Of a DNA stretch of 51,799 nt, positions 9,284 through 37,748 are shown one piece after another (the stretch's first letter is position 1; every line of letters begins with the position of its first letter). A program made the translations under genes and the position numbers. Below the pieces are notes generated by a model. The model was not told where the DNA came from. It saw only the letters and a program-made list of their open reading frames with translations, and did not search any database. The DNA comes from Henriciella sp. (GTDB lineage: Bacteria; Pseudomonadota; Alphaproteobacteria; Caulobacterales; Hyphomonadaceae), in assembly GCA_012960415.1 (NCBI GenBank), contig DUBH01000082.1:1173-52971 (forward strand). The letters run 5' to 3'.

Positions 9284-9886
9284 CTATTTCTTCTTTTTCT
9301 TTTTCTTCTTCTTGTCGGACTTCGATTTGTCCGCCTTGGCCGATTTGTCCTTCTTGGACTTCTTCGGCTTGTCCTTGGTGGCCTTGCCTGGGCCGGCGTC
9401 CGCGGCTTCTTCGGACACGACGTCCTCAACCTCCGGCTCTTCTTCCGGTGCGCCGATGGCGGCAAGCGACAGGATAAAGCCTGCGCGGCGGTTGGAGCGG
9501 ATCATGGCGAGCAGGGCGTTGTCCGCAGCTTCGACGCCCGGCAGCGCCGCATCATAGACTTCACGGCCCTTCGCAAGCAGGGATACTGCTTTGGCGCGGG
9601 CATCCTCTGGCGACGTCGTCCGCTCGATATAACCTGAGGCTTCCATCCGGCGGACCATTTCGGCCAGTGTGGAGCGGTCGATACCGGTGCGATCGACAAG
9701 GCTGGACTGGCTCTGGCCTTCTTCGCTCGCCAGCGCGGCGAGGACGGCAAACTGGCGAAGGGTCAGCCCCTGCGCAGCCAAAGCTTCAGTCGAAAGATTG
9801 ACCGCGGCCTGCTGAGCTCTGTGCAGCAAATGGCTGGGTGACGTAGAGAGATCGAAGCTCTGCGGGTCTTGTTGGTCAGCCATCAC
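9284..9886 (-). CDS. MarR-family regulator with lysine-rich C-terminal tail
   Basis: A 200-residue protein. Residues about 20-140 are a MarR winged helix: LTLRQFAVLAALASEEGQSQ, then SLVDRTGIDRSTLAEMVRRM (recognition helix region) and a wing with GYIERTTSPEDARAKAV. A dimerisation helix follows to about 150. Residues about 166-200 are an extreme tail of Lys, Asp and Ser ending in nine consecutive lysines, which MarR proteins normally lack. The tail is encoded by AAG/AAA-rich DNA running to the stop at 9284, so a slippage-prone run is possible. Start ATG 9886 (or the next Met codon at 9883). Target genes unknown; it diverges from the Nudix gene across 109 bases. Confidence 0.8.
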   Translation of the reverse strand: MMADQQDPQSFDLSTSPSHLLHRAQQAAVNLSTEALAAQGLTLRQFAVLAALASEEGQSQSSLVDRTGIDRSTLAEMVRRMEASGYIERTTSPEDARAKAVSLLAKGREVYDAALPGVEAADNALLAMIRSNRRAGFILSLAAIGAPEEEPEVEDVVSEEAADAGPGKATKDKPKKSKKDKSAKADKSKSDKKKKKKKKK

Positions 9887-16146: not shown

Positions 16147-16348
16147 GGCGTGGAAACTCGCGTGGAAGCCCCGGCGGGTCAATCTCGATTTTCCGGTCGG
16201 ATGGTGGGGGGAAACCCGGGCGTCTGGACAGTGCAGTGACGGTGCACTGGCGGTGCATGGGCGGTGTTTTTTGGAAGAGGCGTCTGCGCTCACCGGCAGG
16301 TGGAAAGCACGTAAGCATTTAGACTTGGGCGTTTCGCTAGCGAAGGGG

Positions 16349-26644: not shown

Positions 26645-27754
26645 ATGACCCAATCCGCCCGCGCTGCCATTGTAGACAAGGCAGAAGCCGAATTTCGCCT
26701 GACTGATGTTGAGATAGATGAGCCCGGTCCCCATGAAGTGCGGATCCGCATCGTGGCAACGGGGCTCTGTCATACAGACCTCGCGGTTCGCGATGGGATG
26801 CTGCCGACCAACTTCCCCGTTGTGCTGGGACATGAGGGCGCCGGTGTGATCGAGGCCGCTGGCGAACATGTCCACGGGCTGAAAACTGGCGACAGGGTCG
26901 TATTGAGCTATGGCTCCTGCGGGGACTGTCGGCCCTGCATGGAGGGCGACCCGGCCTATTGTGATGAGTTCACCGACCTCAACTTCCTGAACAGGCGTCT
27001 CGGCAGCGATCAGAAAGTGTTCAAGGCTGAGGTGAATGCCGCTTTCTTCCAGCAGTCCTCATTTGCGACCTTCGCTATCGCGCATGAGCGCAATGTCGTG
27101 AAAGTGCCGGATGAGGCGCCGCTCAAGCTGCTTGGGCCGCTTGGCTGCGGGATCCAGACTGGCGCTGGCGCCGTGCTCAACACGCTCGCCCCGCGCGCAG
27201 GCACGTCGATCGCCGTCAGCGGGGTTGGCAGCGTCGGACTTTCCGCCGTGATGGCGGCAAAGCTCGCCGGCTGTCATCCGATTATCGCCATCGACATGCA
27301 GGAAGAACGCCTGAAGCTCGCAAAGGAGCTTGGCGCAACCCATACGATCAAGGCGGATGAAGGCGAGGTGCCGGAAATGATCCGCGAAATTGCGCCAGAA
27401 GGCGTCGACGCAGTCATAGAGTGCTCGGGCGCCAAACCGGCGGCGCGGGCAGGCTGGGCTTCTCTTGCCAATCGCGGGGCACTTCTCATCGTTGGCGCGC
27501 CTCCCGGCGGGACCGACTACGACTTCGATGCCAATGAACACATTCTGAGCGGCCGAAAGATAATTGGCTGTGTTGAGGGTGATAGCGTCGTGAAGGTCTT
27601 CATTCCTCGCCTTATCCAGCATTATCTCGACGGCAATTTCCCATTCGACAGGCTGGTCAGCGAGTACAGCTTCGATGACATCAATAAAGCCGTCCACGAC
27701 ATGGAAGAAGGAAAGGCGATCAAGCCGATCCTGATCATGGATGAAGACGCCTAG
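26645..27754 (+). CDS. Zinc-dependent NAD(P) alcohol dehydrogenase
   Basis: 369-residue medium-chain dehydrogenase. Catalytic zinc ligands are in GLCHTDLAVRDG and GHEGAGVIEAAG, with a further ligand in the TGAGAVLNTL region replaced as in class III-like enzymes. The structural zinc lobe is CGDCRPCMEGDPAYC with four cysteines. The Rossmann motif is VSGVGSVGLSAVMAAKLAG, followed by IIAIDMQEERLKLAKELGA, where Asp after the second strand points to NAD rather than NADP. The sequence resembles aryl-alcohol or geraniol dehydrogenases more than simple ethanol dehydrogenases. ATG 26645 is preceded by AAGGAATGACGCC. Followed by a strong bidirectional terminator. Confidence 0.88.
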   Translation: MTQSARAAIVDKAEAEFRLTDVEIDEPGPHEVRIRIVATGLCHTDLAVRDGMLPTNFPVVLGHEGAGVIEAAGEHVHGLKTGDRVVLSYGSCGDCRPCMEGDPAYCDEFTDLNFLNRRLGSDQKVFKAEVNAAFFQQSSFATFAIAHERNVVKVPDEAPLKLLGPLGCGIQTGAGAVLNTLAPRAGTSIAVSGVGSVGLSAVMAAKLAGCHPIIAIDMQEERLKLAKELGATHTIKADEGEVPEMIREIAPEGVDAVIECSGAKPAARAGWASLANRGALLIVGAPPGGTDYDFDANEHILSGRKIIGCVEGDSVVKVFIPRLIQHYLDGNFPFDRLVSEYSFDDINKAVHDMEEGKAIKPILIMDEDA

Positions 27755-27774
27755 AAAGGTCTGTCAGCTGAAAC

Positions 27775-27816
27775 AAAAAAGAGGCGCATCGGGCCAGTCC
27801 CGGTGCGCCTCTTTTC
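27775..27816. terminator. Bidirectional terminator between ADH and crotonase genes
   Basis: Stem GAGGCGCATCGGG (27781-27793) and CCCGGTGCGCCTC (27799-27811), 13 bp with one G-U pair. Six A residues precede it and four T follow it. It serves the convergent genes ending at 27754 and 27839. Confidence 0.93.
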
Positions 27817-27838
27817 ATTTTGAGTGTTGTGCAGACCC

Positions 27839-32605: not shown

Positions 32606-35289
32606 CTATCGCTCTGATTTCAGGCGGTAGAGAAGGTCGAGTGCTTCGCGCGGCGTCAGATCATCCGGGCTGACGGCGTCGAGCAGCTTGAGGGCGGGAT
32701 GGTCCTCGGCCGGGGCGAAGGCTTCGGGTTCTTCGGCGACGGACGCGAAAAGCGGCAGGGCATCGACTGCATCCGGTTTGGCTTCGAGCTTCTTCAGGAC
32801 CTGTTCGGCGCGGCGCACCGCGCGGGCTGGAAGGCCGGCGAGCCGTGCGACCTGTACCCCATAGGAGCGATCTGCAGGGCCGCTTGCAATGTCATGCAGG
32901 AAGACGAGCTCATCCTTCCACTCCTTGGCACGGAGCGAAAGATTGGCGGCATAGGCCAGGTCTTCGGCAAGGCCCGTCAGCTCGTGATAATGGGTGGCGA
33001 AAAGGGCCCGGCACTTATTGGTGTTGTGGAGGTGTTCGACCGCGGACCAGGCAATCGCGAGGCCGTCATAGGTCGAGGTGCCGCGGCCAACTTCGTCCAG
33101 AATGACGAAGCTGCGTTCGGTCGCCTGGTTCAGGATGGCGGCGGTCTCAACCATTTCGACCATGAAGGTGGAGCGCCCGCGCGACAGGTCGTCAGAGGCA
33201 CCGACGCGCGAGAAGATGCGGTCTGCAATGCCGAGCCGGATCGATTTGGCCGGTACAAAGAGCCCTGCTTGCGCAAGGATAACGGCAAGGCAGGCCTGAC
33301 GCAGATAAGTAGACTTACCTGCCATGTTCGGGCCTGTGACGAGCGCAAGACGCGGCGCGAGCGCGCCCGACGCATCGAGGCTCAGATTGTTCGCGGTGAA
33401 GCCTTCTCCTGTCGCCTTCAGCGCGGCCTCGACGACGGGGTGGCGCAGGGCTTCAGCCTCGAACACTGGCTCATCTGCGAGGACAGGGCGCACAGCATCA
33501 TTGGCGTCTGCCCAGTCTGCAGCGGCGGCGGCAACATCAATCTCTGCCAGCGCATGGGCGGCCGTAGAGACGGCGTCATTCACGCCTTCGATGCGCAGGC
33601 AAAGCTCGCGAAAGAGCTCAATCTCGCGGGTCTGGGCGGCTTCTTCGGCGCGGGAGATGCGGCCTGCAAGGTCCGACAGCTCCGGCGTCGAGAAGCGCAT
33701 ATTCGACGCGAGCGTCTGGCGGTGGATGAAGGTCTCGGCATGCGGCGGCTTTAGCAACGCATCGCCGTGGCGGGCGGGCACGTCGATGAAATAGCCGAGG
33801 ACATTGTTGAACTTGATTTTCAGCGCACTGATGCCCGTCTCGTCGCAATAGCGGGCTTGAAGCTCTGCGATGATCTTGCGGCTGTCCCGGCGTAGCGACC
33901 GTGACTCATCCAGAGCCGTGTCCCAGCCATCGGCGATAAAGCCGCCATCGCGTGCAAGTGTCGGCAGGTCTTCAGCCAGCGCACTTTCCAGATCGTAGGC
34001 GAGCTGGGCGAGGTCTTCATGGCGCGCCGGGTCGAGGGCGGAGACCGCATCGGCGAGTAGCTGAGGCAGGCCTGTCTGCAAAGCCGCCAGCATGGAGGCA
34101 AGTGATGCGCCTTCCCTGATCGCCACGGCGATAGATCTGAGGTCACGCGGGCCGCCGCGCTCCAGCCGGATGCGCGTGCGGGCGCGCTCAAGGTCCGGCG
34201 TGGCTTTCAAACAGGCGCGCACATCGCTGCGCAGGTCGCTTTCCTGCAGAAAGAAAGAGACCGCGTCATAGCGTGCCTCGATCGTTTCACGCGCGCATTC
34301 CGGACGCGACAACCGGTCAGCGAAAAGCCGTGCGCCGGGGGCGGTGAGTGTGCGGTCGATCGTGGCGAGAAGCGTGCCCTTGCGCCCGCCATTCATGGCA
34401 ATGTCGATCTCGAGGCTCCCGCGCGCGTGGCCGGATCGATGGACAGGCTGGCAGACTGACCGCGCCGGTTTGGCGGGTCGAGGCGGATGTCAGCGCCCGC
34501 CTGAGTCAGGCTGAGATAGTCGAGCAGGAGGCCGCAGGCGCAAAGCTCCGCCTTGGTGAAGCTACCAAACCCGTCCAGCGCGGCTAGCTTGTAGGCAGAT
34601 TTCAGCGCGCTTTCGCCGGAGGAGACGCTCGCGGCCCGCGATGGCCGACGCGTGACCGGCATTCGCAGAGATGCGAGCGCCTGACGCAGGAGCGGCCGGG
34701 CCTCATCATCCTCAGTCACCAACAGCTCACTGATTGGCAGGCTGGCGGCTTTCTCGCCCAGCGTTTCGGGCGAAACCTCTATGATCTCGAACGCGCCAGT
34801 GGATACATCGCAGGCGGCAATGGCGGCCTCTGTGCCCCCCGCCGCAAGCGCGATGGCGGCCAGCACCTGTCCCTGACGTGAAGACAGGATCGTGTCTTCG
34901 GTGATCGTGCCGGGCGTCACGACGCGCACGACTTCGCGGTTCACGATGGATTTGGAGCCACGCTTTTTCGCTTCGGCCGGGCTTTCGGTCTGCTCGCAGA
35001 CGGCAACGCGCTCACCGGACTTGATGAGGCGGGCGAGATAAGCCTCTGACGCGTGATACGGCACGCCCGCCATCGGAATTGGCTTGCCATCATGCTCGCC
35101 GCGCGCCGTCAGCGTAATGTCGAGGATCTCGGCCGCGCGTACGGCATCCTCGAAGAACAACTCGTAGAAATCGCCCATGCGAAAGAAAAGCAGGGCGTCC
35201 TGGTGGCTCGACTTGATGTCGAGATATTGCGCCATGAAGGGCGTCGGAGCCTTTTTCTCAGGCACGGGTGGGGCGGCGGTGTCTGGCAT
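32606..35289 (-). pseudogene. mutS: DNA mismatch repair protein MutS, frameshifted into two ORFs
   Basis: Mismatch recognition ATPase. The N-terminal ORF starts at ATG 35289 ([13 protein letters not shown]) with the mismatch-binding FYELF in [11 protein letters not shown], and runs through SIDPATR before shifting and stopping at 34393. The C-terminal ORF (32606-34396) starts [10 protein letters not shown] and has Walker A GPNMAGKSTYLRQ and DEVGRGTSTYDGLAIAW. The shift lies in a CG repeat at 34420-34427. Removing two bases restores [14 protein letters not shown] in register with other MutS proteins. The two ORFs overlap as ATGA (34393-34396). Together they cover a normal MutS length of about 893 residues with all domains. 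A sequencing error, a real mutator allele, or a split protein by coupled re-initiation are all possible. Confidence 0.9.
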
Positions 35290-35419
35290 CGGATCAAACT
35301 TAACGGATTCGCATGGGAGGTGTGCAACCCAAATAACCAGTACTGCGCGGGTTGTCGGCAATTCCGCAGCGGCTTAGACACAGTCGAAAGTCGTAGTTTA
35401 AACCTGAAGGCCAATTGCC

Positions 35420-37748
35420 ATGACGTCCAAGCGTCCAACCTTTACCGATAAGGAAGCGCTCGACTTCCATAGTCAGCCAACGCCGGGCAAATTGTCGGTC
35501 ACACCGACCAAGCCAATGGCAACGCAGCGCGACCTGTCGCTCGCCTACAGCCCTGGTGTTGCCGTTCCGGTGAAGGCCATCGCCGAGGACAAAGACCTTG
35601 CCTACGAGTACACCTCGAAGGGCAATATGGTCGCCGTTATCTCGAACGGGACCGCCATTCTGGGCCTTGGCGACCTTGGCGCGATGGCATCGAAGCCCGT
35701 CATGGAGGGCAAGTCGGTCCTCTTTAAACGCTTTGCGGACGTCGTGTGCGCGAAGCCTGCGCGCTCGCCGCAGGCTTTGTCGCTCTGTCGATGTCGAAGT
35801 GTTCTCCAAGGACACTGAAGAGCTGATCACCACGATCCGCAACATTGGTGAGACCTGGGGCGGCATCAACCTCGAGGACATCGCAAGCCCTGAGTGCTTC
35901 ATTATCGAGAGCCGTCTTCGCGAAGAACTCGACATCCCGGTCTTCCACGATGACCAGCACGGCACCGCGATCATCGCCGCCGCTGGCCTGATCAACGCCT
36001 GCAACATCACGGGCCGCGAACTGAACGATGTGAAGGTCGCCATTTCGGGCGCAGGCGCGGCGGGCCTCTCCTGCGCAGGCCTCATCCGCCATCTTGGAGT
36101 GCGGCCAGAGAACATCCTCATGTGCGATAGTCGCGGCGTCGTCTATGAAGGCCGCACCGAGAAAATGGACCAGTTCAAGTCTGCTTTCGCGGTGAAGACC
36201 GAGAAGCGCACCCTGTCCGAAGCGATGGAAGGCGCAGACGTCTTCCTCGGCCTGTCGATTGCAGGCGCGGTCACCAAGGAAATGGTCGCGAGCATGGCGC
36301 CAAATCCGATCATCTTCGCCATGGCGAACCCGGACCCGGAAATCACGCCGGAAGAGATCAAGCAGGTGCGCGACGATGCCATCATCGCAACGGGCCGCTC
36401 TGACTATCCGAACCAGGTCAACAATGTCCTCGGCTTTCCTTACATCTTCCGCGGCGCGCTCGACGTGCGTGCGCGTTCGATCAATGAGGAGATGAAAGTT
36501 GCAGCTGCGCAGGCGCTGGCTGAGCTCGCACGCGAAGACGTGCCAGACGAAGTGGCCGCCGCCTATCACGGCTCGCGCCCGCAATTTGGCCGCGACTATA
36601 TCATTCCGACGCCGTTCGACCCGCGTCTCATCAGCTTCATTCCGCCCTTCGTGGCGCAGGCTGCCATGGACACCGGCGTTGCGCGCAAGGAAATTCCGGA
36701 CATGGACGAGTATCGCCGCATGCTGGCGCGCCGTCTCGACCCGACCGCCTCCTTCGTGCAGAGCGTTCAGGCTGCCGTTCGCGAGAAGAAAGCCCGCATC
36801 GTGTTTGCGGAGGGCGAAGAGCCATCCGTCGTTCGCGCCGCCTTCTCGTTCAAGAACCAGGGTCTTGGCGACCCTGTTCTGATCGGCCGTGAGGAGCAGG
36901 TCACGCGCACCATGCAGCAGATGGGTGTGCCGGAAGGCTCGCTTGAGATCATCAATGCGCGCCTGTCAGACCGTAATCCGGAATACACCGATTACCTCTA
37001 TGACCGCCTGAAGCGTCAGGGCTTCCTGCGCCGCGACGCCCAGCGCCTCGTCAACCAGGACCGTAACGTGTTCGGCTCCTGCATGCTGAAATTCGGTGAT
37101 GCAGACGGCATGATCACAGGTGTGACGCGCAATTATGACGTCGCCCTCAAAGACGTGCAGACCGTGCTCGATCCGATTCCGGGCAAGCAGGTCATCGGCA
37201 TGTCCATGGTGATCAACCGCGGCAAGACGATCTTCATCGCTGATACCTCGATCACCGAACTGCCTGTGGCCGAAGACCTTGTCGGTATCGCTTGCGAGGC
37301 GGCAAGCTCTGTGAAAAGCCTCGGCTTTACCCCGCGCGTCGCCTTCGTGTCCTATTCGACCTTCGGCAACCCGATGGGCGAACGCGCCGAGAAAGTCCGC
37401 GAAGCTGTCGCCATGCTTGATGCGCGCGATGACATCGACTTCGAATATGAAGGCGACATTTCGGTCGACGTCGCGATGAACCCGGGCCACAAGCTGGTCT
37501 ATCCGTTCTCGCGCCTCACCGATGCGGCCAACGTGCTCGTCATGCCGGCCATTCACTCGGCGGCGATTGCAACGAAGATCCTGACCTCGATGAGCCGCGC
37601 GACCGTTATCGGCCCGATCCTGCTCGGCTTCGAGAAGCCGGTTCAGATCGCTTCGCTGGGCGCAACGGTGAACGATATCGTGAACCTTGCGACCTTCGCA
37701 GCTTTCGACATCGACAAGCTCGGCCACATCAAGGCTGCTGCTGAGTAA
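35420..37748 (+). pseudogene. maeB: NADP-dependent malic enzyme with phosphotransacetylase-like domain, disrupted by hairpin insertion
   Basis: Multimodular MaeB: malic enzyme domain (oxidative decarboxylation of malate to pyruvate) followed by a phosphotransacetylase-like domain without that activity. The ORF from ATG 35420 runs through [20 protein letters not shown] and [17 protein letters not shown], then goes out of frame. The rest continues in another frame from [12 protein letters not shown] (about 35790) through FHDDQHGTAIIAAAGLINA, ISGAGAAGLSCAGL and the PTA-like region to 37748. Where relatives have about one codon between ADV and SVDVEV, this sequence has 40 bases (35752-35791), a net +37. 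They contain AAGCCTGCG (35755-35763) and CGCAGGCTT (35771-35779), a 9-bp perfect stem extendable to 12 pairs. Each ORF alone lacks a complete malic domain. Confidence 0.9.

Follow-up and report, generated by a model that had tools for sequence, protein, structure and literature searches.

Short-patch double illegitimate recombination (SPDIR), reportedly presented in PNAS in 2016, is said to replace a few bases by a short segment that comes from an unlinked part of the same genome. Microhomology is expected at the junctions of such events, and RecA, RecJ and replication are involved. Short palindromes inside genes are known from the REP and BIME sequences and from the Rickettsia palindromic elements. 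The process of SPDIR is also named in a further article (PMC7192050). In T4 gene 60, a case of translational bypassing, a stop codon follows the take-off codon (PMC5009743).

Here we describe an insertion that breaks maeB, the gene of an NADP-dependent malic enzyme, in a 51,799-nucleotide stretch of DNA from Henriciella sp. (the window). In this lineage, maeB has probably undergone a recent mutation in which about one base, after codon 108, gave way to a 38-39-base copy of part of an unlinked gene on contig C83. An exact intragenomic source can be named for a small gene-breaking bacterial insertion. The coordinates of the features are collected in Table 1.

Table 1. Features at and around the maeB insertion (window positions unless another contig or locus is given).
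Feature	Position	Strand	Remarks
maeB 5′ part, malic enzyme N-terminal domain	35420-35818	+	profile positions 9-106 of 764; in frame to 35743, out of frame across the insert, stop at 35816-35818
maeB remainder (rest of malic domain, NAD-binding domain, PTA-like domain)	35784-37748	+	open; frame differs from that of the start
39 bases equal to G000:C83:41152-41114 (minus strand)	35744-35782	+	identical
Hairpin with 7-base loop	35753-35777	+	arms 35753-35761 and 35769-35777
Left-border GTCG	35741-35744	+	belongs to the target
Right-border GTCG	35779-35782	+	within the copied source sequence
mutS, divergent neighbour, in two ORFs	32606-35361	-	34393-35361 N-terminal, 32606-34396 C-terminal; separate from the insertion
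Adjacent Ku and LigD genes	L088 2396-5751		complete bacterial end-joining pair

The insertion in maeB

The maeB gene starts at 35420 and is read in its normal frame up to the GTC at 35741-35743 (codon 108). A sequence-only reading of this DNA had proposed that a net +37, hairpin-bearing insertion follows there, with 40 bases where relatives have about one residue, and that the rest of the gene is intact. This description holds: the extra bases are present in the assembly at 35744-35783, 40 of them separate the GTC from the TCT at 35784-35786 where relatives have a single codon, and past the break another frame stays open as far as 37748, while the upstream frame stops at 35818. Profile matches identify the two parts as consecutive stretches of an NADP-dependent malic enzyme.

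A maeB match was found in 26 of the 28 other genomes of the genus, and the insert is missing from all 26. The uninterrupted stretch FAD[VI]DS[VIF]D[VI]EV stands in 25 genus relatives, and L014 has FADVDSIDIEV. Beyond the genus, where the best 80 of 593 confirmed loci were compared, the spacing is identical by pattern in 71 and the same with another residue in three; the remaining six could not be read, as the match ran in the wrong frame. The maeB insert is the sole insertion of at least 6 bases relative to all four relatives aligned across the window (46.6-49.4 kb aligned to each).

Elsewhere in the window, positions 27753-27776 are 13-17 bases longer than in the three relatives that cover them, and an inverted repeat (27768-27824) adjoins; extra bases as such are thus not unique to maeB. 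One-base length differences from the covering relatives occur at 16207, 19724 and 44498.

The source of the inserted segment

The search of the whole genome that the sequence-only reading had proposed for the insert was run with the 39-mer at 35744-35782. The 3.52-Mb assembly holds exactly one other copy, at C83:41152-41114 on the minus strand, identical in 39/39 bases. It lies inside an unrelated ORF of 553 amino acids without a Pfam match, which by its look we take to be a membrane protein; the adjoining gene was recognised by eye and is presumably metK. The source is thus retained at its own place, and the insert is identical to a segment on another contig.

Relatives of the source ORF were found in 13 of the 28 other genus genomes, and four of these were compared by an ungapped scan of 33 residues around the segment. 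Identical residues number 29/33 in G016, 24/33 in G003, 16/33 in G002 and 12/33 in G004, in a scan that is blind to indels and weak for the distant G002 and G004. Over the whole ORF, identity is 93% to G016 and 82% to G003, and these two near relatives have the peptide REACALA(A/G)GF in place. Since the nearest relatives of the source carry the segment in place while the relatives of maeB are free of the insert, maeB is the recipient; as judged from these alignments, the segment is native to the C83 ORF and was copied into maeB.

A phage or foreign origin of the insert was rejected, the exact 39-mer being missing from the viral_contigs and genome_contigs collections (which may leave out the genome itself).

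At the left junction, one base (G) is common to source and target, so that 38-39 bases were copied. The copied tract ends on the right in GTCG, after which the alignment loses one base. About one base that relatives have is missing from the maeB site, which amounts to the replacement of about one base by 38. Junction microhomology thus comprises one base on the left and, on the right, the terminal GTCG with one base missing after it.

The earlier reading had also noted a GTCG at both borders, as a short target duplication would give. The right copy is where it was seen, at 35779-35782, but the left one is at 35741-35744 and not at 35749-35752. The right GTCG is moreover part of the source sequence, and the apparent duplication is therefore no footprint of transposition. 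Together with the hairpin, the paired GTCG had favoured a mobile palindrome (REP-, BIME-, MITE- or RPE-like) inserted in maeB. This explanation is now very improbable: the genome has two copies only, as does the arm pattern when loops of 0-25 bases are allowed, the second copy is part of an ORF, and the segment is present in the ORF's nearest relatives too, and no copy with up to 3 mismatches occurs in the 28 other genus genomes. Searches for exact and near copies, for the arm pattern and among the 25 longest of the 88 inverted repeats in the window returned the source copy only. That no second copy of the 9-bp arms exists in the window needs a small amendment, in that a lone further copy of the left arm, AAGCCTGCG, occurs at 9477, while the full copy of the insert is on the other contig. 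A hairpin within an insertion need not, then, mean a mobile element.

The hairpin within the copied tract

Both hairpin arms were found as described, AAGCCTGCG at 35753 and CGCAGGCTT at 35769. With RNA parameters the 39-mer folds at -20.5 kcal/mol. Equally stable 39-mers make up 7/1623 in the source gene (overlapping windows, which are not independent), 32/7395 of those sampled in the window, and 29/5791 (plus strand) and 28/5791 (minus strand) of those sampled in C83; with DNA parameters the counts are 5/1623 in the source gene and 37/7395 in the window. The insert 39-mer thereby ranks at 0.3-0.5% in hairpin stability. A 71-mer around the insert has a z-score of -2.7, and 2 of 200 shuffles are as stable.

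The copied tract nearly coincides with an unusually strong hairpin. We infer that a single-stranded scrap protected by its hairpin may have been captured into maeB; the link between hairpin and capture is drawn from one traced event.

A stable hairpin between two matched GTC codons (35741 and 35787) in fitting frames, with a downstream gene part under purifying selection (see below), recalls programmed bypassing or frameshifting in the manner of T4 gene 60, which would restore MaeB and which had been raised speculatively before. Several features make this extremely unlikely. The putative take-off codon in maeB is followed by GTG and not by a stop, whereas gene 60 has a stop there (PMC5009743). 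Landing on the second GTC would leave the protein three residues short where the spacing is constant among relatives. The insert is missing from the relatives examined, which leaves no conserved signal, and at the source the same hairpin sits inside an open ORF.

Age of the break and metabolic context

The part of maeB downstream of the insert has a dN/dS of 0.021-0.035 against the four nearest relatives; two relatives further away give 0.040 and 0.045. When the changes were divided by hand in a three-point comparison with L004 and L005, about 8 non-synonymous and 68 synonymous ones fell to the lineage's own branch, and about 9 and 56 to the L004 side. Two pairs of close relatives have still lower values (L003-L004, 0.003; L005-L006, 0.004). 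An old pseudogene was rejected on these values, which show purifying selection even though the two close pairs are lower still. The low dN/dS implies that the break is either very recent or an artefact.

The sequence-only reading had allowed for a full MaeB elsewhere in the genome, which would make the present copy a plain pseudogene. The whole genome yields a single Malic_M match, and a second malic enzyme was rejected on this count. Neither Pfam family of PEPCK was found in the genome. The change of frame therefore likely destroys the sole malic enzyme recognised in the genome. With PEPCK also missing from the matches, a loss would be notable, and an artefact is worth checking.

Artefact, neighbouring frame breaks and a second insertion

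If the insert were an artefact of the assembly or of the library, 38 source bases would have been pasted into maeB by a chimera or by gap filling, and the gene of the living cell would be intact. The purifying selection on maeB until now, and its standing as the only malic enzyme in a genome with no PEPCK of either Pfam type, speak for this reading. So does the draft itself, which is in 86 contigs, with six N runs of 10-88 bases in C83. Bordering the 10-N gap at C83:17385 are 31 A-rich bases (G000:C83:17354-17384) that G016 lacks; their last 27 occur at no second place in the genome, and the stretch is probably an assembly edge fault.

A further point for an artefact is that mutS and maeB are broken side by side. 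A net gain of 2 bases in a CG-rich run near 34419 splits mutS, which is uninterrupted in the four relatives compared; the break lies 1.3 kb from the maeB insert, and substitution density is ordinary there too. If real, the mutS break would leave a strain without MutS. When ORFs of G016 were matched to this genome, frame breaks appeared on C83 in 5 of 136, three of them at N gaps, and within the window in 2 of 41, namely mutS and maeB; the same two genes are the broken ones among 41 when G001 is used. In the reverse survey, with the genome's own ORFs against G016, 3 of 133 were broken on C83 (two at N gaps of its own assembly), and the one broken among 43 in the window was a frame that runs antisense to maeB. 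Near position 69250 of G000:C83, another ORF is frame-broken relative to G016, close to the C-terminal end of a protein of 367 amino acids.

Against an artefact, the window contains no N, and joining by a shared k-mer would presumably not make a left junction with only one base in common with the source. The C83 gap-edge sequence, having no second copy in the genome, differs in kind from the maeB insert. Around the site, lineage-specific substitutions occur at an ordinary density of about 2%; the uninterrupted site of G016 has no special structure (of the 60-mers sampled, 43% are at least as stable); and the four of the six C83 gaps that were checked do not lie at strong hairpins. A local misassembly was rejected on these last three observations. 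The artefact that the earlier reading had listed among its options is on balance unlikely, but with the draft gapped and mutS broken as well it retains a share of the probability that deserves attention.

A second frame-breaking insertion was observed on C83, in a gene named by eye as CheY-like (155196-155228; L075 15196-15228), where about 33 bases stand against about 10 in G016. It adds a net 23 bases and breaks the frame, in a comparison made with G016 only. The insert folds at -20.1 kcal/mol, and 11 of 5791 sampled 33-mers are as stable. Its best match in its own genome covers 22 bases, 2 of them mismatched, with 16 identical bases; in the sequence used for the null comparison its longest match is 13, which falls within the null range (10-15), and no source is claimed. 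About 200 kb aligned to relatives thus contain two frame-breaking hairpin insertions (maeB and CheY-like), each in the top 0.2-0.5% of hairpin stability. The CheY-like insertion would either lend weight to structure-guided capture or point to a systematic error.

A further and rather unlikely reading is that this lineage, from which mutS seems to have been lost, preferentially takes up hairpin-forming fragments of its own coding DNA into other genes. If true, structure-guided capture would be a distinct route to new palindromes and frameshifts in bacterial genes, and a bias of capture towards hairpins would link the structure of DNA to the way in which genes gain new palindromes.

Possible mechanism and comparison with known systems

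On the preferred account of a recent copying event, the cell itself would have made the insertion. A short single-stranded fragment of its own DNA may have been incorporated at a replication fork, which would be short-patch double illegitimate recombination. Alternatively, Ku/LigD end joining could have used filler DNA that was either captured or copied; the two genes are next to each other on contig C54, and the LigD has phosphoesterase, ligase and polymerase domains. By either route, the hairpin of the fragment may have helped its capture, for example by shielding it from exonucleases. Both mechanisms fit the anatomy of the site: the thin microhomology speaks more for end joining, and the fact that an intragenomic segment took the place of one base speaks more for short-patch recombination. 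Thin junction microhomology, the gapped draft assembly and the mutS break 1.3 kb away count against the account as a whole.

The literature searched yielded no description of a similar event in a related bacterium. The insert resembles the REP and BIME sequences and the Rickettsia palindromic elements in being a short palindrome within a gene, but differs from them in having no family of copies and a source in plain coding DNA. Template switching during replication would likewise give a copied tract with short homology (GTCG) at its end, whereas here the jump would have been to a gene on another contig and not to a nearby strand. The nearly microhomology-free left junction and the lost base would fit Ku/LigD end joining; a small literature search, including the available part of PMC1378119, found no case of unlinked short filler in bacterial Ku/LigD joining. 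SPDIR, like the event in maeB, replaces a few bases by a short intragenomic segment at an unlinked place; it differs in the organism, and the microhomology at maeB is thin. The maeB insert is a natural candidate for an intragenomic short-patch insertion outside Acinetobacter.
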